NCBI GenBank assembly: GCA_944325315.1 | Contig: CALVAA010000019.1 | Span: 1 to 34,496 of the forward strand | Reading direction: 5' to 3' | Length of the DNA stretch: 34,496 bases | Source of the DNA: Candidatus Gastranaerophilales bacterium | Lineage (GTDB): Bacteria > Cyanobacteriota > Vampirovibrionia > Gastranaerophilales > Gastranaerophilaceae | Shown here: positions 4,827 through 27,527 of the stretch, in pieces | How the letters are laid out: the number at the start of each line of letters is the position of its first letter | Numbering within the stretch: position 1 is the stretch's first letter | Made by a program: the position numbers and the translations under genes | The notes under the pieces: model-generated | What the model was told of the DNA's origin: nothing | Database searches by the model: none | What the model saw: only the letters and a program-made list of their open reading frames with translations

Positions 4827-7217
4827 TTATTTGTCTTTTTTGTTAATATAGCTATTATTATTTTTAATGCCTGCCTTTTGGGTCAAGTTTTTCTTGCCTG
4901 TTATTTTCTTAAACAATCTTGACCAAGCGCCTAACGGTCCTTTTTTATTTATCTGTTCTTCTTCAAATTTAATTATTTCTTCCCTTGATTTTTTTGGCAA
5001 AACAGGTTGGCAAATAGATTTTCTTACAAGAAATTCGTTTGTTGTTTCCGTCATAGCTGCAATTGCTGCTGCTTGAGGCAATGAGTTATTAAGTTGAGTT
5101 TTAAATACTGAATTAAATAAATTCATCAAAGTACCGTTAATAACAAAATTAGAAAGTTTATGGGCTATTCTTTCGTTTCTTTCTTCTTTGGCTTCTTCGA
5201 CGCTTCTTCCTGCCGACTCTATTAAAACCTTGTTTGTATAATCATTAACAAAGAAATAAGTAGAAATTAACGTAACCATTGTTCTTGAAATATGTGCCAA
5301 TTCACCTGTTTCAGAACCTTTAAGAAAATTTCTTACATTTTTTGTTATAGTTTCAATGGTTTTATCATCATTTTTCGGTTTATTTATATTTATAAATCCT
5401 AAATATTTCTTATTGTTGTCAAAAAGAATTTCGTTCAACTTTTCCATCTCTTTTTTAAACCTTGATGCATCGATACTTTTTAAAGTTGATTCAACTGTTT
5501 TAATATTCTTTTCACATTTTTTTCCAACAACAATTTGCTCAAACGCAAAATTTGCAAGTCTTCCGGGGATAGAAAACAGATTATAGAAAAGTTTAAATAT
5601 TTTACTGAATCCTTCATACACACCGGTTGCTAAAGGTTTTTTAAGCGAAGCTGACCAATTTACAATATTATTTTGTTTTAATACATCAATGTGTTTTAAA
5701 TATTCATCAAATAAACCCTTGTTTTCAATCCCTTTGGGGGTGTCTGCCAATCTTTTAATTTCTTTTTCAATATTTTCAAGATTTATCTGTGTCTTTTTTT
5801 GAGTGAGCAGTTTTTTAATGTTACCTGCAAAATCGTATTTGCTGCTTCGTTTTTTATATTTGTCGTGTATATTCTTAAAAACTTCTTTATTTTTGCTTAT
5901 AAATTTTTCATTAAGCTCATCAGGATTAATATTGCCAAATATCTTTTTATACTCAAGTCCTTTACCGTATTCACCCTTAAGTGCTTTTGAGGCAAGATAA
6001 CCTAAAGATGCAATTAAAGAAGCTGAAATTAAAAGTTGTCTTCGCTTTTTTTGTTTTGATGATAATTGTTTGTTTTCAGCAATTCTTTTTTTGGAAGCAA
6101 GCTTTGAATTTTCAATGGTAATACTTTCTAATGGAGCAAAAGTTCCGTCTTTTGATGCAAACTGAATAAATATGTTTCGAATTGAATTGTCACCTTTAAA
6201 GTTTGTGGTTTTCTTTATTTGTTCATTTTGTTTGCCGTTTTCTTTTTGTTCTTGCGCATTTACAACTATATGTTTTTTTTGTGCATATTTTTTTGCTTCC
6301 TCCGGACTCAAAGGAACAATAGGAGTACCGTTAAATATTCTTGAAGCAACCTCTGATATAAGGGCCGACATAGCAATCACAAGAGCATTAACCATTGTTC
6401 TGTTTTTAATATATTTATCCAAAGCACCAAGCGTCACAAATGTCGTTCCCGCACTTAGCATCATTCTTGTAAGCTCTTGCTTCATACGGGATTTTTGAGA
6501 TTTTTTTGCTTCTTTTGAATCATTTTTTTGAAGCATTGAAATATTAAAAAAGTCCCATCCCGAATAAATAGCACTAACCGTTGCAGTTACCATACGGTTT
6601 AGCGTTCTTTCATCCCTTGAGCTGTAATTTTTTGAGGTATTTGCAATATTTGCCGTTGTTTTTTCCTTAAAAGCTTTTTTGCATTTGTCAAACAGATATT
6701 TTCCGTCTTGATTTTTCACCAAAAATTCGTCAAGAACATCAGAGACAAAATTGATATTTTTTTCCGTTTGTGAAGCATTTACTCTATTTGCTATAAATTT
6801 TGTGTTTAGTATATAGTTTGCAAATTTATTTGATTTATTTTTATTAATAAAATTTGCACCGCTGATTATAAGATCCCTGGGCAAATCTACAAAAGGATAT
6901 TTAATAGTTTTTGCCAAATCTATAATAAGATTTCTTTTGGGTATTTCTATAGTATTATCTTGTATTTTTAATTTTGCTTTATCTACTGCTTCACTGAATG
7001 CTTTTTGTCCAAATATATCATCTATACTGTTTATGATCTCTTTGGCATTTGTATATGCGATTTTTCCGTTTTGCAGATTTAATTTTTGAATAATTCCCGA
7101 GGTAAAATTAATAGGGGCTGAAACTTGGCCTTTTTTGTTGTTGTCAAATTCAAAATTATTTTTGACATGGCAAGGCGCAACTGAAAAATTATTTGTTTTT
7201 GGTGTAGTTACTTTCAT
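4827..7217 (-). CDS. Large membrane-associated protein of unknown function
   Basis: I do not recognise this 796-residue protein. It is very rich in Lys and Asn. Hydrophobic segments that could span a membrane lie near residues 205-220, 245-260 (around MMLSAGTTFVTLGAL), 270-290 (ALVIAMSALISEVA), 395-415 (LISASLIASLGYLASKAL), a stretch around FYNLFSIPGRLANFAF, and SRTMVTLISTYFFVND. No signal peptide is visible. Long charged coiled-coil-like stretches separate the hydrophobic parts. An ATG at 7217 is preferred. An in-frame TTG at 7229 would add four residues. Neither has a Shine-Dalgarno sequence. The gene is divergent from the histidine kinase and ends 61 nt before the phosphohexomutase gene, so it may head that operon. 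Proteins of this style look lineage-specific. Confidence 0.75.
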   Translation of the reverse strand: MKVTTPKTNNFSVAPCHVKNNFEFDNNKKGQVSAPINFTSGIIQKLNLQNGKIAYTNAKEIINSIDDIFGQKAFSEAVDKAKLKIQDNTIEIPKRNLIIDLAKTIKYPFVDLPRDLIISGANFINKNKSNKFANYILNTKFIANRVNASQTEKNINFVSDVLDEFLVKNQDGKYLFDKCKKAFKEKTTANIANTSKNYSSRDERTLNRMVTATVSAIYSGWDFFNISMLQKNDSKEAKKSQKSRMKQELTRMMLSAGTTFVTLGALDKYIKNRTMVNALVIAMSALISEVASRIFNGTPIVPLSPEEAKKYAQKKHIVVNAQEQKENGKQNEQIKKTTNFKGDNSIRNIFIQFASKDGTFAPLESITIENSKLASKKRIAENKQLSSKQKKRRQLLISASLIASLGYLASKALKGEYGKGLEYKKIFGNINPDELNEKFISKNKEVFKNIHDKYKKRSSKYDFAGNIKKLLTQKKTQINLENIEKEIKRLADTPKGIENKGLFDEYLKHIDVLKQNNIVNWSASLKKPLATGVYEGFSKIFKLFYNLFSIPGRLANFAFEQIVVGKKCEKNIKTVESTLKSIDASRFKKEMEKLNEILFDNNKKYLGFININKPKNDDKTIETITKNVRNFLKGSETGELAHISRTMVTLISTYFFVNDYTNKVLIESAGRSVEEAKEERNERIAHKLSNFVINGTLMNLFNSVFKTQLNNSLPQAAAIAAMTETTNEFLVRKSICQPVLPKKSREEIIKFEEEQINKKGPLGAWSRLFKKITGKKNLTQKAGIKNNNSYINKKDK

Positions 7218-7322
7218 GAATTTAGGCAAGTTTCAAATTCTATATCTCTACAATATCATAATCAGAAAAATTAGTATCGTTTTTTTATCAATTTTTAAGT
7301 TTTTTATATTTTTGTTAATAAC

Positions 7323-10569: not shown

Positions 10570-11613
10570 ATGAATTTGGCAAAAACACTGTTTCTGATTC
10601 TTCTTACACTGTGTCTGTGCGGATGTAGGGATATAGAAAGCATTAAAAACGTAGATTATATCAAAGTTGTAAAAGATAAAAATTTAAATTCAAAGACTTT
10701 TCATGGGATGGTAAAATCACAGTTGAAATCCGATTTGAGTTTTCAAAGCGAAGGAAAAATCATATTTCTTCCATACACAAAAGGCGATTTTGTAAAAAAA
10801 GGACAAGTTCTTGCAAGACTTGACGGAATTTTGTATAAAATCAGAAAAAACGAAGAAGAAGCAAGACTAAAAGAAGCAAAAATCGAATACAACAAATCAA
10901 AAAGTTATTATAAAAGAATGGATATTTTACACAAAGAAGGTGCAATTTCGGATAATGACTGGGAAGATGCGTATTTCGGCTTAAAAACACTTGGCGAAAA
11001 AATAAAAATTCAGCAAGAAAAAATAAATTATCTAAATAGGGAAATAAGCTACAATATTATAACAGCACCCTATGACGGCTTTATAAGCGACAAAATGAGT
11101 GAAGTAGGTTCATATGCCAAAATCGGAGTGCCTGTTTTAACAATAATGGGCAATAATAAAACCCAAATAGAAACAATGGTGGATTCTTCCATTATTAATA
11201 ATCTTGGCTTGAATGAAACAGTAGAAATAACTGCGGGCGGAAATTATTACGAAGGAAAAATCGCCCATATTTCAAAGACAAGCTCGACAACCGGCGGGTA
11301 CTTAATTAAAATATATTTAGACGGAATAAAAAGCGAATTGAAAGACGGCATGAGTGCCGATATTACAATACCGATTAAAAATGTTTATTGTACATATATT
11401 CCTCTTGATTGCATCTTTGAAGAAAACGGGGAAAAGTTTGTATATAAAATTGTAAATATAAAAAATAACATCGGTACTGTACTAAAAGAAAAAATCAAAA
11501 CAGGATTAATAAAAGATACGGAAGTTGAAATTATAAAAGGAATAAATGACAACGATTTAATAATATCAGGCAATTTAAACAAATTGAACAATAATATCAA
11601 AGTAAGATTATGA
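10570..11613 (+). CDS. RND-type efflux periplasmic adaptor lipoprotein (HlyD/AcrA family)
   Basis: A 347-residue membrane fusion protein that would link an inner-membrane transporter to an outer-membrane channel. A lipoprotein signal ends in L-C-G-C with lipidated Cys19. It is followed by the first half of the lipoyl domain (GKIIFLPYTKGDFVKKGQVL), an alpha-hairpin (about 90-160, rich in Lys/Glu), and the second lipoyl half (NIITAPYDGFISDKMSEVGS). A beta-barrel domain (GKIAHISK, DGMSADITIPI) and a membrane-proximal domain (VPLDCIF-like YIPLDCIFEENGEKFVYKI, then VEIIKGINDNDLIISGNL) complete it. Its stop overlaps the porter-like gene by 4 nt (ATGA), so the two are translationally coupled. It starts 46 nt after the secreted protein gene. 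Confidence 0.93.
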   Translation: MNLAKTLFLILLTLCLCGCRDIESIKNVDYIKVVKDKNLNSKTFHGMVKSQLKSDLSFQSEGKIIFLPYTKGDFVKKGQVLARLDGILYKIRKNEEEARLKEAKIEYNKSKSYYKRMDILHKEGAISDNDWEDAYFGLKTLGEKIKIQQEKINYLNREISYNIITAPYDGFISDKMSEVGSYAKIGVPVLTIMGNNKTQIETMVDSSIINNLGLNETVEITAGGNYYEGKIAHISKTSSTTGGYLIKIYLDGIKSELKDGMSADITIPIKNVYCTYIPLDCIFEENGEKFVYKIVNIKNNIGTVLKEKIKTGLIKDTEVEIIKGINDNDLIISGNLNKLNNNIKVRL

Positions 11614-13166
11614 AAAAATATATTTTAATTATTGTTTTTTTGATTACATTTTTTGCCTTTTATATTATTCAAAAAAATTCATACTCAATAAGAATAAATT
11701 TTCCGCTCAAAGGAATGAATTGTGAAAAAATCAACTTTCAAATTGCAAACAAGATTAGCGAAATCTTACTTCAAATTGAACAAATAAAAGACTTTGTAAT
11801 TTTTTCAAAACAAGATTCCTGCAGTGTCTACATTAAAATCAAACCTTTTTTGATGCTCAGAAAAAAACTTGCCTTTGAAATTGCAAGAAAATTTGATAAT
11901 GAATTTGAAAATCTTAACTTTGACTTAGATGATGAATACGATTACCCTTACTGTACATTCTTTATAATGGCAACAGATGATTCTTATTATGATTTAAAGA
12001 AAAAAGCCCAAGATATATTAGAAAAACTTTTAAATTTAAAAATAGCGTCAGAAGTTGAAGCTTTCAGTCCGGAAATAGTAACCTATATACATTTTGACTA
12101 CAATACACTTTTAAATTATGATTTATCAGTTAGTGATATAAAAAATATTATTCTTAAGACAAATATAAAAAACACAAGTTCTTTAAAATCAAATGCAAAA
12201 AGCAGTTTTTCCGTAGATACTAATGGCAACATAAATAATATTGATGATATTAAAAGCATTGCTTTATACCAAAAAAATAAACAATTCTCTATTTTATTAA
12301 AAGATGTCTTTGAAGTTGAAAATGCTCTGAAAACGCCTCCCTTGGGGCTTATATTCTTTGATGAATATAAAGCAGTTATTTTTGCAATTAAAAAAAGAAA
12401 GTTTTATCCTGCTTTTTTGTTTTATTACAAATTAAAAAAATATAGAAATTTTTTAAACAAAAATATGAAAAACTATAAATTTACAATCATAAACAGTTCA
12501 AAACTAAAAAAAACAGAAGTATATCTTCAAGAAAACTCAAGTACCGACGCCCTTTTTGATTTATATAAAAAAATTAAACACAAAGGTTTTAAAAACACAC
12601 TTTACCTGCTTTCAATGCCAAACCCTAAAATAGGTTTAAAAGACGAATTTTTTGAATATTTAAACAACAGATTGATAATTCTTTCAAATCCTGTTGAAAC
12701 AAATAAGATAAGAAAATTTTTAAAAAAAAATAAATTTGATTACATTAAAGAAAATAAAAACAAAATTGAAATTTATAAAAACACGCCAGATGAAATCATT
12801 ACAGAAATAAAAAATTTCAGTAATAATTATATAAACAATACAACATCTAAAAAACTACAAATTAATTACCAAATTGTACAGTACTTTTTAAGAGACTACG
12901 GTTTTATAAAAAATGAAGTAATTGATGCAATCTTTGCTTCAAACGACGGGTTGGAGGCAGGGTATTACTTTGATGAAAAAATAAAAATTCCTATAATAAT
13001 AAAAGCAAAAAACCAAAAAAATAATTTTATTTATTCAAACACATACAAAACTTTGTTTCCGTTTGAAAATTTGACAAAAACTTTTATTAAAAACAGTTAT
13101 TATATGATAGTCAGAAAAAACGGAAAATATTACGCCGAATTAATACGCAAAAACCCTTCAATTTGA
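11610..13166 (+). CDS. RND-porter-like protein lacking transmembrane helices 2-12
   Basis: A 518-residue protein with one N-terminal membrane helix (residues 4-20); the rest looks periplasmic. Residues 25-305 follow the order of the first RND periplasmic loop: PN1-like start (SIRINFPLKGMNCEKINFQI), the segment EIVTYIHFDYNTLLNYDLSV that matches the conserved 'V-x-V-D-x-x-x-L-x-x-x-x-L-S-x-x-D-V' pattern, and SILLKDVFEVENAL matching 'V-x-L-x-D-V-A-x-V'. Residues 306-515 resemble the second loop, including GLEAGYYFDEKIKIPIIIKA and LFPFENL. The protein ends where helix 8 would begin. Helices carrying the proton-relay residues are absent. The open reading frame is intact and coupled to the adaptor gene, so it is probably functional. 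By-eye homology; no search was run. Confidence 0.65.
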   Translation: MKKYILIIVFLITFFAFYIIQKNSYSIRINFPLKGMNCEKINFQIANKISEILLQIEQIKDFVIFSKQDSCSVYIKIKPFLMLRKKLAFEIARKFDNEFENLNFDLDDEYDYPYCTFFIMATDDSYYDLKKKAQDILEKLLNLKIASEVEAFSPEIVTYIHFDYNTLLNYDLSVSDIKNIILKTNIKNTSSLKSNAKSSFSVDTNGNINNIDDIKSIALYQKNKQFSILLKDVFEVENALKTPPLGLIFFDEYKAVIFAIKKRKFYPAFLFYYKLKKYRNFLNKNMKNYKFTIINSSKLKKTEVYLQENSSTDALFDLYKKIKHKGFKNTLYLLSMPNPKIGLKDEFFEYLNNRLIILSNPVETNKIRKFLKKNKFDYIKENKNKIEIYKNTPDEIITEIKNFSNNYINNTTSKKLQINYQIVQYFLRDYGFIKNEVIDAIFASNDGLEAGYYFDEKIKIPIIIKAKNQKNNFIYSNTYKTLFPFENLTKTFIKNSYYMIVRKNGKYYAELIRKNPSI

Positions 13167-13502: not shown

Positions 13503-14375
13503 TCACTTGTTTTCTTCAATTTTTTTAAGAGCATCTGTACCCACAAGATTTTCTAAAATTGAACGGGAAGTTAAAAAATCGTCTTGCGCTCTTTGAGCAT
13601 CTATTTTGGCGTTTCTGTAATATACATCCGCAATAATTAATTCTTCTTTCGATTTGTTCTGTGAATTTTTATAAACTTGCTCTCTTTTTTCAAAATTTTC
13701 TTTTGTCATCTTGGCAAGCTTTTCTTTTGTCTTGTAATCAATGTATAAATCTAAAAGTTTTTTTTGCAAATCATCAATTTTTCTTATTAAAAGGACCATA
13801 TCTGCGTCAGTTACTTTTGAAAACCTGTAGTTTGCTTCTTTATCATCTTTCATAAAAGCATTAACAAGCCCCCCGCCTATTAAAGCACCGGTTGCAAGAT
13901 ACGGATCTGCAGCAAGACTTGCGCCTGCCAGAGAAGAAAAGCTTGTAATGGGTTTTAAAATTTTTTTAATAGTGGATTCATTTGGTTTGTCTTCATCCGG
14001 ATTTGAAAGCTTGTAGATAGTATATTTCATTGTTTCGGATTTTGCCGTTGTTGCTTGCCACAGTATACTTAAATCGGAATTTGTTTTATTTTCATCCAAC
14101 TCCAATTCATAGCTTATATCATTTGCAAGTTTTTTAAGACTTAAATCCGCATAATTTTGTCCTTCTTTTGTCGAAGGATTACTGTTGTCTTTAGGGTTAG
14201 AAGTTAATTTTGCACTTTGTTGTTCAATTTTTTTATCGTTTTGTTTATTTGATTCAACTTTATCCGTATTGGAAAGCCTTCCCATAAAAGGTTTCGGCTC
14301 AACTAAATCCGACACATTGATTGCATAAGAGTAAGGTAAAAGCAATAATATTAAATTAAGGAGAATTTTTTTCAT
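13503..14375 (-). CDS. Secreted TolC-like helical protein, half length (copy 2)
   Basis: This 290-residue protein has a signal peptide (MKKILLNLILLLLPYSYA). Its C-terminal half is a long helical coiled coil ending YRNAKIDAQRAQDDFLTSR followed by ILENLVG, which resembles the 'A-x-x-x-Y-x-x-A-...-A-x-x-x-L-...-L-x-x-L-x-G' close of outer-membrane efflux (TolC) repeats. It shares its layout with the upstream gene product: LW-x-AT, a KL-x-x-P segment, a Gly/Ala-rich hydrophobic middle, then T-D-A-x-x-x-x-L-x-x-x-I-x-D-L-Q. TolC proteins are typically 430-490 residues. I chose the ATG at 14375 because of a strong GGAGGA 5-6 nt before it; an upstream start would add ten residues. It overlaps the preceding gene by 20 nt. 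Confidence 0.72.
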   Translation of the reverse strand: MKKILLNLILLLLPYSYAINVSDLVEPKPFMGRLSNTDKVESNKQNDKKIEQQSAKLTSNPKDNSNPSTKEGQNYADLSLKKLANDISYELELDENKTNSDLSILWQATTAKSETMKYTIYKLSNPDEDKPNESTIKKILKPITSFSSLAGASLAADPYLATGALIGGGLVNAFMKDDKEANYRFSKVTDADMVLLIRKIDDLQKKLLDLYIDYKTKEKLAKMTKENFEKREQVYKNSQNKSKEELIIADVYYRNAKIDAQRAQDDFLTSRSILENLVGTDALKKIEENK

Positions 14376-15249
14376 TTCTATCCTCCAAAGGTAAATTTGA
14401 AACATTTAAAAGTTTCTTTTCATAATTCAAATCATTTTTATCGACATTCTGAAAAGTTAAATCAAATTGGGCAACATTTAATTCCTGTACTGTTTTTTTT
14501 CCTGCAAGTCTTACAAGAGCAAGTTGATATTTTTTTGCTTCTTGCTTCAGTTTAAATTCTTCTATTAATTCATCTTCCCACTGAGCAGAAGTAATTGATA
14601 TATTTAATGAATCACTGCCGGATAAAGCATCAGAATAATTTTTGTTGTGCAGAAGAATTTGCTCCCTGCATTTTTTTAGCTTAGTAAGTGCGCCTTTGTA
14701 TTTGAAATAGTCTACAATAATTTCATCCTGTAAGTCTTCAATTAAGCTTGCAAGTTCTATTGCTTCAGTATCTGTTATAGCCGGGTTTTGAAGTTTTTCA
14801 TTATTTTCTTTATTGATTAAACTTGTAGCAAGTCTGCCGGCAGCATAAGCACCCGATTGCACACCGTAGTTCATTCCCAAAAAAGAAGGCAATAAAGCCG
14901 CTCCGGAAATTATTGCACTCATTGATTTAGCCAAAAGCGAAGAGTGGATTCTTCTTTGTTCTGCCGGAATTGCAAGTTTTTTAAGACAAAAACTAATCAT
15001 AGGATTATTGTTTACGGTTGCATTCCATAAATTCTCAATATCTTCAAGATCAGCCCTTTGTTGTTCGTTTATTTGGTTTTGTGCTTCCAGTGTATCATCA
15101 ACAAATAAAGAACCTTTTAAAGTATCTACCTGGTCTTTATATTGAACATCAAAGCTTTGAACTTTGTCGAGTCTGATTGCATCCTCGGCAAAAGCAAAAG
15201 GAATTATATTAAAAATTAGCAAAATAAGGCTTATATATTTCCTCACCAT
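14356..15249 (-). CDS. Secreted TolC-like helical protein, half length (copy 1)
   Basis: A 297-residue exported protein with signal peptide MVRKYISLILLIFNIIPFAFA. Visible parts are an acidic linker, IENLWNATVNNNPMISFCLK, a Gly/Ala-rich hydrophobic stretch (about 115-155), then TDTEAIELASLIEDLQDEII and a long helical region ending in LALVRLAGKK, similar to the end of a TolC/outer-membrane efflux helix pair. It is a diverged paralogue of the following gene, with which it overlaps by 20 nt. The two could form a hetero-oligomer that replaces the internally duplicated TolC subunit. No barrel-forming strands were identified. There is no Shine-Dalgarno sequence; a -10-like TAAAAT lies 6 nt before the ATG. 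Confidence 0.72.
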   Translation of the reverse strand: MVRKYISLILLIFNIIPFAFAEDAIRLDKVQSFDVQYKDQVDTLKGSLFVDDTLEAQNQINEQQRADLEDIENLWNATVNNNPMISFCLKKLAIPAEQRRIHSSLLAKSMSAIISGAALLPSFLGMNYGVQSGAYAAGRLATSLINKENNEKLQNPAITDTEAIELASLIEDLQDEIIVDYFKYKGALTKLKKCREQILLHNKNYSDALSGSDSLNISITSAQWEDELIEEFKLKQEAKKYQLALVRLAGKKTVQELNVAQFDLTFQNVDKNDLNYEKKLLNVSNLPLEDRNEKNSP

Positions 15250-15423: not shown

Positions 15424-16413
15424 TTATTCGGCGGAATTTTCCAGCATTTCTCTTTGTATATCGCCGGCTTTTTTGCTAAGATCTGCTTTTTGTTGCATTA
15501 GTTCGGAAAAATGCGATATTACAGCTTCTTTTGTATCTTTTTGAATTTGTCTTTGTTCGTCACTAGTTTCTTTATTTAGATTACCGGAGTCGTCAAAACC
15601 TGCATAAGAATCTGTCTCATCTGGCTGCAATTCCGCTTTTGAATATTCACTTTCCGACATTGCAACCCATTCCGGATTAAAACCATCGCCGGGTACATCC
15701 ATCCAGCTTGTTTTATGCTTAATCCTCATTTCTGTATTTTCATCAAAAGAAGGTTCTTCTCTAAATTCCTTGCCTTGTTTTTCAGCTTCTGCTTTTTTTG
15801 CGTAGTAATCATCTACTTCTTGTTTTTCGGAATCGGATAGTTCATCATATTTTTTTCCGTTATAAGTATTAATCACGGTTACTTCATATCCGCCACCTAT
15901 ATCATACTTTGCTACTCCTGTTTGTTCATATTCTGCATCCATTTCTTTTTCACCGGTTTCAATCTGCATTAAAAGGTCTTTAATATCAGAATTTTTTTCC
16001 AGATATTCTTCATCTAAAATCTCACCATAGTCTTCTTCTCTTTGTTTTTCATATTCAGCAAGAATTTCATCATCATTAAGTAAACCTGTCGGATCTAGAA
16101 TTGGTTTTAGATTTTCTTTAGGCGCCACTTTCATGTATATTGTTTCAATTGGTTCACTGCTGCGTGCATTATCCAAAGCATCCAAAATATCTTTATTTGC
16201 AGCTTCATCTGTGTTCGGTAAAGCAACCTCACTTAAGACGCTTTGCGTAGAATCAGCAAAAATCTCATTTACGATATTTTCTGTGTTTTGATTTTGCTGC
16301 GTTTGTTGAACATCTTGAATTCCGTTTTGCAGCCCGGATAAAATTTTTGGTATTTCCATAAATACACCATAACCTTTCTTTATTATTTTGTGTTCAAATC
16401 CATAACACGGCAA
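15424..16413 (-). CDS. Acidic protein of unknown function, paralogous to its upstream neighbour
   Basis: A 329-residue, strongly acidic and Gln/Glu-rich protein with no signal peptide or membrane helix. I do not recognise the family. A module near residues 168-240 (GGGYEVTVINTYNGKKYDEL, then LSDSEKQEVDDYY, GKEFREEPSFDE and MRIKHK) also occurs at the C-terminus of the protein at 16525-17034, so the genes are paralogous. The region around 100-140 is rich in Asp/Glu and the C-terminus is helical. A TTG start at 16413 has GGAG 9 nt upstream. An in-frame ATG at 16359, giving a 311-residue MEIPKILSGL form, has only AAAGG 13 nt away; either may be used. A terminator follows. Confidence 0.7.
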   Translation of the reverse strand: MPCYGFEHKIIKKGYGVFMEIPKILSGLQNGIQDVQQTQQNQNTENIVNEIFADSTQSVLSEVALPNTDEAANKDILDALDNARSSEPIETIYMKVAPKENLKPILDPTGLLNDDEILAEYEKQREEDYGEILDEEYLEKNSDIKDLLMQIETGEKEMDAEYEQTGVAKYDIGGGYEVTVINTYNGKKYDELSDSEKQEVDDYYAKKAEAEKQGKEFREEPSFDENTEMRIKHKTSWMDVPGDGFNPEWVAMSESEYSKAELQPDETDSYAGFDDSGNLNKETSDEQRQIQKDTKEAVISHFSELMQQKADLSKKAGDIQREMLENSAE

Positions 16414-16524: not shown

Positions 16525-17034
16525 TTATATTTTTTTAATCCTATGCTCAAAATTTATTTCAAACGGACATTTTTCTCTAAATTCCGTACTGTTTTGCAAT
16601 GCTTTTTGCTTCTGAAACTCAAAATCTCTAATTTTTAATTCCTCAGCTTTGGAAAGATTAAAATACATTTTATTATCGTATAGTTTAATGGAAGTAATTT
16701 TGTAGCCACCAAAATCAACTTCATTTATGCCCGGTTCTATATGCTCATTAAGAATATTTTCAGCGTGCAATAAAATATCATTTAGCGCATATTCCAACGT
16801 TGAATTTTTTTCTATAAAATCTTTGACAATAACGCCATATTTTTCTTCCCTTGAAAAGGAGTTGCTTTTTACCGTTCTTGATACAAATTCAATACCATTT
16901 GCCTTTTTAAAATCAAATTTTTTATCTAAACAGGTTTTTGGTTCTAAAAAAGATAAGATGGCTTGGTTTGGGCTTAGGGAAATATCATTTATTGTTGTTG
17001 AATCGTTTTCATAACAATTTTTATTTTCATTCAT
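16525..17034 (-). CDS. Protein of unknown function sharing a C-terminal module with its downstream neighbour
   Basis: A 169-residue cytoplasmic protein. Residues from about 100 onwards (INEVDFGGYKITSIKLYDNK, then MYFNLSKAEELKIRDFEFQK, EFREKCPFEINFEHRIKK) match the middle module of the 15424-16413 product: D-x-G-G-Y-x-(I/V)-T, Y-(N/D)-x-K-x-Y, L-S-x-x-E, EFRE-x-x-(P/S)F and RIK. The N-terminal 90 residues are unlike the neighbour. The ATG at 17034 has AGGTG 6 nt upstream; an in-frame GTG three codons earlier has no better signal. Function unknown. The duplicated module seems the conserved unit. It lies 115 nt from the ribosomal operon's terminator and is transcribed separately. Confidence 0.68.
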   Translation of the reverse strand: MNENKNCYENDSTTINDISLSPNQAILSFLEPKTCLDKKFDFKKANGIEFVSRTVKSNSFSREEKYGVIVKDFIEKNSTLEYALNDILLHAENILNEHIEPGINEVDFGGYKITSIKLYDNKMYFNLSKAEELKIRDFEFQKQKALQNSTEFREKCPFEINFEHRIKKI

Positions 17035-17137
17035 AATTAACACCTATTTAGCAGCACATAAATATTTAATTCCAGTTTTTGGGGTTTTATTTATAATTTT
17101 TATATTTTTTTTACAAATTTTAATAAAATGTAATGCC

Positions 17138-24399: not shown

Positions 24400-26637
24400 A
24401 TGAAAAAGAATGTTTATGCATATCTGCACACCCACTGGGATACCGAATGGTACAGAGATAAACAGGACTTTGACATACGGTTTTTAAAAGTCTTTGATGA
24501 AGTTCTTGACGAGCTTAAAAAGAATAACGCACCTTATTTTTATCTTGATGGTCAGTTCTTAGCGCTCGAAAACTATTTAAAATACAGAAAAGAAAAACTT
24601 GATGAAATATTATATTTCATCAAAAACAAAAAACTTTCCATAGGCCCTTATTACGTAAGCGCAGACAGTTATTTGAGCAATTTCTGTATGGCAGTTAAAA
24701 ACCTTGGATTAGGAATTAAGTATTCAAAAGAATTTGGCCAAAAAGAATTTATCGGTTACATGGCTGATATTTTTGGAATATCCGGTTCCGCATTTTGCGC
24801 ACTTAATTTAAACAATATTGACAAAGCAATCGTCTGGAGAGGCGTAAACCCCAAAAAAACAAACAACAATGCAAACTTTATAAAAAACAACATTAAAACA
24901 ACCTGGCTTGTTCAGGGATATTTTAATGACTTTTTCCACAGTGACCCTATAAATATTGACGGCATCAACGATTATCTTAACAAAATTTCTAAATATTCAA
25001 ACCCCATACTCTTTCCAATCGGAGCAGATCATTTGGGTGTATTAAAAAATGCAAAAGAAAAAATAAATTTTGTTAATAGAAACCTAAAAAACTATAAAAT
25101 CATTCTTACAAGTCCGTTTGAATACTTTAAACACACTGACTTTAAAGACAATACAAATGAAAAAGAATTTTTGGACAATTCAAACACATATATCCTCCCG
25201 GGAGTATACAGTGCAAGGATTTACCAAAAAAGAAACAATAGCTTTGCCCAGCACAAACTTACAAGATTAATAGAACCGCTGGATTTTTATCTTGGTAAAA
25301 AATATTCACCAAATATTGAATACTGTTATAAAACTTTGATGAAAAATCATGCCCACGACGGAATTTACGGATGCAGCACAGACAAAGTCCACAGAGCAAT
25401 TGATTATAGAATTGAAAAATGTCAAAATGCTTTAGATTCAATCCTTTCTAATATAATTTATGATTTTAAAACCAAAAACAATATTCAGGGCGAATCAGCA
25501 GAAAGAATAGGGCTTTTTAACCTTTCAAACAATGATGATATTAAAGTTGTTGAAATAAAGCTCCCTTATGTATTAAAAAATTCTCAAATAATCGAAAAAC
25601 AAAGAGGTTTTAAGGATTCACTGCTTTTTAATCTCCGCAAAATTCCGGTTACCGAAGATATTTGCCCGATTTACACACAAATAATTGAAATTGAAAAAAA
25701 TAAAAAATTTGAATACTCAAATCCAAAAATCATCCCACCCAAAAAAACCCATAAAATCACTCATGTATCTATTGAAAATAAGTATATAGGGTTGAATATT
25801 AAAAATAATAAAATATTTATCTCAAACAAAAAAACAGATGAAAAATATGAACTGAAAATAAGCGACATTAAAGACCAAGGCGATAGTTACAATTTCTGTC
25901 CAAAAGGAGAGTATACGTATTTTAATCTCTTAAAATCCGAAATTTTATACAAAGGACAAATTGAATCTTGTCTTAGGCTTCGCTTTAAAAATATTACTCT
26001 TGACATCCGCATAAATAACCACAATGAATTTTTGGATTTTAAAGCACAAATTAACAACAAAAAGAAAAACCGTAAAATCCAGCTTGTTCTAATTCACAAT
26101 AACAACATAAAAGAAACGACCGCTCAGGATATGGCAGGCTACATTAAAAGAAAAATAGATTATAATTATAATATAAAAGATCACATGCCGGCCGTTAGAC
26201 CAAAAGAATTAAAAACAAACACCTTTCCGATGCAAAATTTTGTCTGTACAAAAGACTTAATTGTTTTAACAAAAGGCTTAAACGAATACGAAGTATATAA
26301 AAATGAGCTTAGAATATGCCTGTTAAGAGCTTTTGGAACAATTTCAAACCCCAAAAACAAGACAAGAGCAATACCTGCGGGTCCCGACATAAAAACACCG
26401 CAAGCACAAGTTTTGGGAGAAAATTATGCTGACTTTGCAATTTGTTTTGGAGATTTCAAAAAAGCTTTTTATAATTTGGACATCTTTTTTAAAAACTATG
26501 TTGTTTTTGACGGAAATTTTACAAAAAACAACAAAATTAAATTAGATGAGATTCCTAAAGAAAAATATATATACGGACTATATCAAAACAAAAAAATAAG
26601 CTTTGATTTTAAAGACAAAAAAATATCATTGATATAA
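24400..26637 (+). CDS. Glycoside hydrolase family 38 alpha-mannosidase-like enzyme
   Basis: A 745-residue protein. The N-terminal catalytic domain has the zinc-binding HTHWDTEWY (H12 and D14 as ligands), the nucleophile region GYMADIFGISGS with D123, the VWRGVNP segment and the later NHAHDGIYGCSTDKVHRAID with the third and fourth zinc-site residues. GH38 enzymes remove alpha-linked mannose. Similarity of the motifs to mannosylglycerate hydrolase (MngB) suggests a small mannoside as substrate, but this is not certain. The C-terminal part (about 380-745) is the family's beta-sandwich region and is shorter than in MngB. No signal peptide, so cytoplasmic. It stands alone, with no sugar transporter next to it. 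Confidence 0.9.
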   Translation: MKKNVYAYLHTHWDTEWYRDKQDFDIRFLKVFDEVLDELKKNNAPYFYLDGQFLALENYLKYRKEKLDEILYFIKNKKLSIGPYYVSADSYLSNFCMAVKNLGLGIKYSKEFGQKEFIGYMADIFGISGSAFCALNLNNIDKAIVWRGVNPKKTNNNANFIKNNIKTTWLVQGYFNDFFHSDPINIDGINDYLNKISKYSNPILFPIGADHLGVLKNAKEKINFVNRNLKNYKIILTSPFEYFKHTDFKDNTNEKEFLDNSNTYILPGVYSARIYQKRNNSFAQHKLTRLIEPLDFYLGKKYSPNIEYCYKTLMKNHAHDGIYGCSTDKVHRAIDYRIEKCQNALDSILSNIIYDFKTKNNIQGESAERIGLFNLSNNDDIKVVEIKLPYVLKNSQIIEKQRGFKDSLLFNLRKIPVTEDICPIYTQIIEIEKNKKFEYSNPKIIPPKKTHKITHVSIENKYIGLNIKNNKIFISNKKTDEKYELKISDIKDQGDSYNFCPKGEYTYFNLLKSEILYKGQIESCLRLRFKNITLDIRINNHNEFLDFKAQINNKKKNRKIQLVLIHNNNIKETTAQDMAGYIKRKIDYNYNIKDHMPAVRPKELKTNTFPMQNFVCTKDLIVLTKGLNEYEVYKNELRICLLRAFGTISNPKNKTRAIPAGPDIKTPQAQVLGENYADFAICFGDFKKAFYNLDIFFKNYVVFDGNFTKNNKIKLDEIPKEKYIYGLYQNKKISFDFKDKKISLI

Positions 26638-26708
26638 AAAACATTTTTTTGGGAATATCAATACAAGGAAGAAGTTTATTGAAGGATACTAAAGTGGAGA
26701 TAACTACT

Positions 26709-27527
26709 ATGAATGAAATTAACCAGGCAGTGGAAATATTTGAAAAAAACGGCATAAAAAGCCGCCTTAACAAGGATAATAAAATTATAATTTCGCATTA
26801 TGCAAGACCAAAAGATGAATCAATTAATGAAAATGATTTAATTAAAAACGTTATAGCATGCGAAGGCTTATTTGATACAAAAAATTCACTCCTAACCGAA
26901 TTTCCTCTTGTTGTGGCACGAGAAATAAGGCTTTATGACGATACCAAAATTACAGAAATGCCTGAATTAAAAGCAGCGGGGATTATTGTATTAAATAAAA
27001 CATTAAAAAAACTCCCTAAACTAAAAGCTGTAGGTTCAATTTCTCTTGAAGATTCCATGATAAAATCACTTCCTAAATTAAAAGAAGCAGGAATTCTTAT
27101 TGCTCAAAATTCAAAGTTAAAAGAATTGCCTTCTTTAAAAAAAGCAACCAAACTATGCATTATAGACTGCCCTGTTGAAGATTTAAAAGAATTAGAAGAA
27201 GCCGAAGATATTTTCCTATGTTCAAGTGATGAAAACAACAAAATTAAAATTATCAACCTTGCAAATTTAAAAGAAGTTAACAAGCTTTTTGCTGCAAATA
27301 CAGCTTTAAAGTCACTTCCGAAACTAAAAAAAGCACAAAAAATCGCCTTATATAATTGTGAAGTAAAAAGTTTAAAACTCAAAGGCGCAGAAATTGAAAT
27401 CAAAAACCATATTTCAGATAGCGAGTTGAGCGAAAAGTTTGACACATTTACCGATTGGTATAATTCGGATATTCTTGAAAAATCTATGGATTTGCTCGGA
27501 AGTGTGGTAAATCTTATACAAAGTTAA
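26709..27527 (+). CDS. Leucine-rich-repeat-like protein with 19-residue repeats
   Basis: A 272-residue cytoplasmic protein. From about residue 75 it has at least seven repeats of roughly 19 residues with the pattern [K/E]-x-L-P-x-L-K-x-A-x-x-I-x-L-x-x-x-x-[L/I/V]: for example KKLPKLKAVGSISLEDSMI, KSLPKLKEAGILIAQNSKL and KSLPKLKKAQKIALYNCEV. This would fold as a parallel solenoid. The N-terminal 70 residues (MNEINQAVEIFEKNGIKSRL) and the C-terminal helix (FTDWYNSDILEKSMDLLGSV) cap it. The ATG at 26709 has GGAG 9 nt upstream; a TTG 20 codons earlier is a poorer start. It follows the GH38 gene by 71 nt and ends in a strong terminator. A protein-interaction role is likely but the partner is unknown. 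Confidence 0.75.
   Translation: MNEINQAVEIFEKNGIKSRLNKDNKIIISHYARPKDESINENDLIKNVIACEGLFDTKNSLLTEFPLVVAREIRLYDDTKITEMPELKAAGIIVLNKTLKKLPKLKAVGSISLEDSMIKSLPKLKEAGILIAQNSKLKELPSLKKATKLCIIDCPVEDLKELEEAEDIFLCSSDENNKIKIINLANLKEVNKLFAANTALKSLPKLKKAQKIALYNCEVKSLKLKGAEIEIKNHISDSELSEKFDTFTDWYNSDILEKSMDLLGSVVNLIQS

Follow-up and report, generated by a model that had tools for sequence, protein, structure and literature searches.

The window, a stretch of 34,496 nucleotides, carries two overlapping genes, A and B, of a protein family that the libraries consulted (Pfam and NCBIfam) leave unnamed and that is nearly universal within the class that bears it, Vampirovibrionia (Melainabacteria in literature usage). 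Both products are predicted to contain a long helical hairpin of the TolC type. Our tentative proposal, which we regard as plausible but far from secure, is that A and B build an alternating ring, forming a periplasmic helical tube with a Gly/Ala-rich hairpin at the outer membrane and no beta barrel. The pair and its parts are located as follows.

14356-15249, minus strand: gene A, upstream member of the pair, an open reading frame of 297 aa
13503-14375, minus strand: gene B, downstream member of the pair, an open reading frame of 290 aa with its ATG at 14375
14356-14375, minus strand: 20-nt overlap of the end of A and the start of B (open reading frame coordinates)
14382-14386, minus strand: GGAGG, resembling a ribosome-binding site, for B (sequence)
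15187-15249, minus strand: Sec-type signal peptide of A, residues 1-21 (judged by eye)
14322-14375, minus strand: Sec-type signal peptide of B, residues 1-18 (judged by eye)
14971-15093, minus strand: N-terminal helices of A with LWNAT, residues 53-93 (AlphaFold model)
14812-14937, minus strand: Gly/Ala-rich middle of A, residues 105-146 (helical in AlphaFold with pLDDT mostly <50; hydropathy and periodicity)
14503-14772, minus strand: long helix, turn and 36-residue helix of A (residues 160-211 and 214-249) with LxxLxG end (AlphaFold and profile alignments)
14004-14156, minus strand: N-terminal helices of B with LWQAT, residues 74-124 (AlphaFold model)
13848-13979, minus strand: Gly/Ala-rich middle of B, residues 133-176 (AlphaFold at low confidence; hydropathy and periodicity)
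13542-13808, minus strand: long helix, turn and 36-residue helix of B (residues 190-240 and 243-278; AlphaFold, pLDDT 75-97 by blocks)

Two overlapping genes had been called by the first-pass annotation, and both open reading frames and their overlap were found; each N-terminus is signal-peptide-like by eye, in line with the signal peptides that it assigned to both products. The start of B was taken as 14375 rather than 14405, where the open-reading-frame list places it (300 aa), because GGAGG lies 6 nt upstream of the ATG at 14375. A motif layout described as common to both proteins was recovered for LWxAT, KLxxP, IxDLQ and LxxLxG, whereas the TDxE/DA element is exact only in A (TDTEA) and reads TDADM in B. 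Judged from their sequences, A and B are homologues whose likeness is beyond chance, with a BLASTP E of 1e-10 over 143 aligned positions and a profile-profile score of 99.7% (2.6e-25, 197 columns).

Each protein comprises one domain of about 185 residues, in which an LWxAT helix is followed by the weakly hydrophobic, Gly/Ala-rich middle, a long helix, a turn and a helix with an LxxLxG end; the consensus of 94 domains runs from DLEDLEILWEATVERNPTIKFALKKLS through the middle SSLMKKTLSPLISGAALAGAMLGGDPGTASGSLAGGGLANNLIN and then VTDTELILLARLIEDLQDKLIKNYYDYK to a hairpin with an LERLAG end. The AlphaFold models are all-helical, with main helices at residues 53-81, 83-93, 105-114, 128-146, 160-211 and 214-249 in A and helices at 74-112, 114-124, 133-144, 159-176, 190-240 and 243-278 in B. 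Mean pLDDT was 60.9 for A and 66.2 for B (pTM 0.52), the hairpins being confident and the middles low. A TolC-like helix pair, on which the earlier reading of these proteins depended, is present in both models. Its last helix has 36 residues in A and B, equal to H4/H8 of OprM, and its long helix has 51-52 residues, compared with 67 in H3/H7 of OprM (lengths from an excerpt of PMC8277102).

Sequence searches located relatives of A and of B each in 52 of 58 related genomes, and the six genomes lacking both are 78-93% complete. A family profile search of the class identified the family in 112 of 117 genomes and in 88 of 89 high-quality genomes, with a completeness of 54-93% for the five genomes without it. 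In a phylum sample (n = 292), 136 genomes matched, all of them within the class, and 156 had no match; the 20 of these that were listed all lie outside the class. Most genomes carry one or two copies, and the named relatives drawn from the genome collection (18 loci) belong to Candidatus Gastranaerophilales or to uncultured MAGs. Neither A nor B matched anything above the cut-off in Pfam or NCBIfam, and thus no confident match to an unrelated family arose there. No NCBIfam match at E ≤ 0.01 was obtained for 22 diverse family members, a PDB sequence search with the A and B profiles gave nothing beyond chance level (lowest E 0.27 and 0.63), and literature searches returned no publication on such a family.

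The likeness of the family to TolC and other outer-membrane efflux proteins (OEP, PF02321) exceeds the control scores. The 94-domain family profile matched 63 OEP repeats of the class at 92.6% in local alignment (E 4.6e-7), and a forced global alignment gave 95.0% over 178 columns, spanning OEP 1-186. Against the same family profile, hairpins of membrane-fusion protein (MFP) adaptors scored 9.7%, Skp/OmpH 0.4% and reversed OEP 0.1%. A further control with 65 neighbour protein families gave at most 1.3%. With a smaller OEP set, reversal of one side gave 0.6 and 0.9%, and reversal of both sides 75.5% versus 88.1% forward. The signal is carried by the C-terminal hairpin, which alone scored 87.6%; the middle alone scored 0.1%. 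The N-terminal 60 columns alone scored 1.6%, which is not significant though in register and lies below one control family at 4.2%, so that the N-terminal helix yielded no independent support for OEP likeness. Because OEP and MFP hairpins themselves score 93.5% against each other, the family-OEP score is no proof of homology, and likeness at such a level may reflect a common hairpin design.

Among Pfam matches of individual members at E ≤ 1, OEP was the commonest family, found for 9 of 33 B domains, for 3 of 22 members of A7 and, level with one other family, for 2 of 29 members of alignment A1. The B domain of the window reached 14.9 bits against OEP, under the Pfam gathering cut-off of 22, and A of the window had no OEP match in Pfam. 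Membership of OEP is not claimed, because strands and the family cut-off were both tested: no strands were predicted, and the window proteins stayed below the cut-off. Foldseek found no PDB match at E ≤ 0.001 for either model; a second structural comparison returned only common helical hairpins with many tied rows, and the lack of a clear TolC row in it excludes nothing. In the window's own genome, 24 OEP matches were found at E ≤ 1, of which 19 exceed the cut-off; counted by frame, this 1.8-Mb genome encodes about nine TolC-type proteins, many for its size.

Amphipathic helices appear to suit the Gly/Ala-rich middle better than inner-membrane spans or strands. Periodicity, assessed in 14-residue windows with 2000 shuffles and p values uncorrected for the windows scanned, was alpha-type (p = 0.003 and 0.017) in two stretches of the family that flank a GGDPG turn, and nowhere beta-type there, and an OEP positive control showed beta periodicity at the corresponding place (p = 0.011). 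This test is rough, because some OEP windows beyond the strands also gave beta-type power (p 0.015-0.049). No strand was predicted in the middle of either AlphaFold model, where confidence is low. The best 19-residue hydropathy reached the usual inner-membrane threshold of 1.6 in none of 39 A domains, one of 43 B domains and none of 12 single-copy domains. The prior suggestion that these proteins lack a normal barrel is thus upheld at the level of prediction by the models, hydropathy and periodicity in agreement, the middle being modelled at low confidence.

Among 55 loci, 31 contain adjacent A and B genes, 8 one fused open reading frame, 12 a single copy and 4 only B, the B-only loci (L111-L114) lying near a contig end. 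In every one of the 31 two-gene loci A comes before B, with either a short gap or an overlap between them, and the fused loci keep this order; the fused frames (512-573 aa, two repeats) all belong to family f3. A gene tree of 83 domains, from which L114, the same-genus loci L116, L117 and L119-L121 and domains of <120 profile positions were left out, resolved an A clade (34 rows), a B clade (37) and a single-copy clade (12), with the A halves and the B halves of the fused f3 form each monophyletic. A tree of RpoA, S4, S11 and S13 from 29 genomes (one of 30 genomes yielded no RpoA and is absent; RpsD was found in 21 of the 29) placed all two-copy families in one clade (17 rows, 100/99), to which neither the single-copy families nor the cyanobacterial outgroup belong. 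The two trees broadly agree. Given both trees and the monophyly of the f3 halves, parsimony favours an ancestor with a single domain, which duplicated in tandem once to give A and B; fusion in f3 came later. As neither the root nor the deep branching is fixed, the single-copy families may instead have lost one copy. The first-pass description of A and B as split TolC-like halves therefore survives only in part: the TolC-type helical hairpin is borne out by profiles and models, whereas a split is not supported, given the separate A, B and single-copy clades, the one two-copy clade in the species tree and a fused form seen only in f3.

Across the class, no neighbour gene is common to the loci, and no efflux genes are kept beside the pair. 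Two genes of efflux type converge on the pair in the window, an association that is not conserved.

10570-11613, strand not given: RND adaptor gene, directly preceding the gene at 11610-13166
11610-13166, plus strand: 518-aa RND-like protein; ACR_tran matches residues 27-263 (1.4e-7), and a single membrane span lies at the N-terminus

MFP and RND-like genes also lie about 1.5 kb from the pair in one other species (locus L117). An efflux operon was considered and rejected, the adjoining MFP and RND-like genes not being conserved neighbours. The shortened RND-like product corresponds to the start of the periplasmic part of an RND permease without its 12-span body; it is not a fresh pseudogene, because 25 of 28 genomes from the genus carry a relative, encoded by a frame of 411-562 aa.

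The adjoining adaptor gene is consistent with a different role, in which A and B would form a periplasmic adaptor collar, their coiled-coil tips docking on TolC or membrane-fusion proteins and their middle resting on the membrane. The genome's many ordinary OEP proteins (24 matches) indicate that the pair is no replacement for them, and the best-ranked structural neighbours of B include the adaptor hairpins of AcrA, a TMexCD1-TOprJ1 entry and HlyD (Z 8.1-9.3). RND and HlyD adaptors share the long alpha-hairpin with A and B, but carry lipoyl and beta-barrel domains around it; Pfam and NCBIfam showed neither domain in A or B, and no HlyD match. With a family profile that scores 9.7% against adaptors and 92.6% against OEP, and with an adaptor gene that is not a conserved neighbour, we consider such a collar rather unlikely.

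A conserved arrangement was observed in families f8 and f13: in 8 of 8 loci (L107, L166 and L170-L175) the single-copy gene lies between a preceding zinc-ribbon-like gene and an S49 peptidase gene that comes after it. Peptidase_S49 was confirmed by Pfam in L107 and L171 and assigned by cluster in the other six loci, and the zinc-ribbon match is weak and comes from a single scanned protein. In the seven f8 loci the row continues with genes for a Yip1-domain protein and a MiaA-type transferase. This order of genes, together with PspA/Vipp1 and F-BAR folds among the tied structural neighbours, would fit a scaffold on the periplasmic face of the inner membrane, serving membrane organisation or quality control with an SppA-type S49 protease, the TolC likeness then being that of a convergent coiled coil. 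However, none of the other lineages examined showed the S49 operon, and the OEP likeness stands above its controls, which leaves this role, too, on the unlikely side.

The alignment from end to end and a unit length nearly equal to that of OEP would also agree with divergent but ordinary TolC proteins whose middle forms normal beta strands; this is very improbable, as the middle shows neither beta periodicity, which the OEP control does show, nor a predicted strand, and scores 0.1% against OEP when taken alone. An exported helical pore-former of the bipartite or tripartite alpha-pore-forming type, composed of A and B jointly, would account for a hydrophobic head set between long helices, and the many tied structural rows for A include AhlC (Z 7.7), but near-universal presence in one or two copies with agreeing gene and species trees is unlike a typical accessory weapon and neither protein matched such a family in Pfam, so that we give this reading hardly any credence.

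In the alternating tube that we tentatively propose, A and B would be translated together and exported to the envelope, each supplying one TolC-like repeat composed of a helix, a hydrophobic helical hairpin and a long coiled-coil hairpin. The two proteins would alternate within one ring, for example as 3A+3B, giving six repeats; the number of units would equal that of TolC, whose six helix-turn-helix units derive from three chains with two repeats each (excerpt of PMC13095208). This ring would form the periplasmic helical tube; the Gly/Ala-rich hairpin, placed where TolC has two beta strands, would embed the tube in the outer membrane or hold it against that membrane. Such a membrane is presumably available to the family, because Melainabacteria carry genes for a diderm, LPS-containing envelope (excerpts of PMC4040986 and PMC4451040). 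Single-copy relatives would assemble the same ring from one protein, and fused relatives from a two-repeat protein. The bolder claim of a second TolC tunnel architecture, an alternating hetero-hexamer that keeps the coiled-coil tube and enters the outer membrane by a ring of amphipathic Gly-rich helices, seems doubtful to us at present.

TolC and other OEP proteins have two repeats per chain and act as outer-membrane trimers serving as exit ducts, each repeat contributing two membrane beta strands to a 12-strand barrel. The family resembles them in its signal-peptide-like start (by eye), its unit of about 185 residues, its coiled-coil hairpin per repeat with a 36-residue last helix and LxxLxG close, and its two units per set (A and B, or fused). 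In contrast to OEP, A and B are predicted to lack beta strands and to have a Gly/Ala-rich helical segment in their place, the units are encoded by separate genes in most lineages with two copies (one unit per gene in the window), the window proteins fall under the Pfam cut-off, and the pair lies outside efflux operons. VirB10 provides a precedent for crossing of the outer membrane by helices. The alpha-helical barrel of Wza-type proteins likewise places helices instead of strands in the outer membrane; the periplasmic rings of these proteins are mixed in composition, with beta structure predominating (excerpt of PMC4827864).

An envelope family nearly universal in a whole bacterial class is likely to have a basic role in its cells. 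A strandless TolC-type tube, if it exists, would mean that the tunnel part and the membrane part are exchangeable. The class retains a single unit, a tandem pair and a fused double unit, all three stages of the presumed history of TolC, and this series would offer a direct testbed for the duplication and fusion presumed to lie behind TolC.

Other genes in the window include the following.

4827-7229, minus strand: 800-aa protein, with no Pfam match at 0.001
15424-16413 and 16525-17043, minus strand: adjacent paralogues (36% over 108 aa, 2e-16), with no Pfam match above the cut-off
24400-26637, plus strand: glycoside hydrolase family 38 alpha-mannosidase, adjoining the unassigned gene at 26649-27527
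26649-27527, strand not given: 292-aa product with leucine-proline-lysine repeats (by eye)
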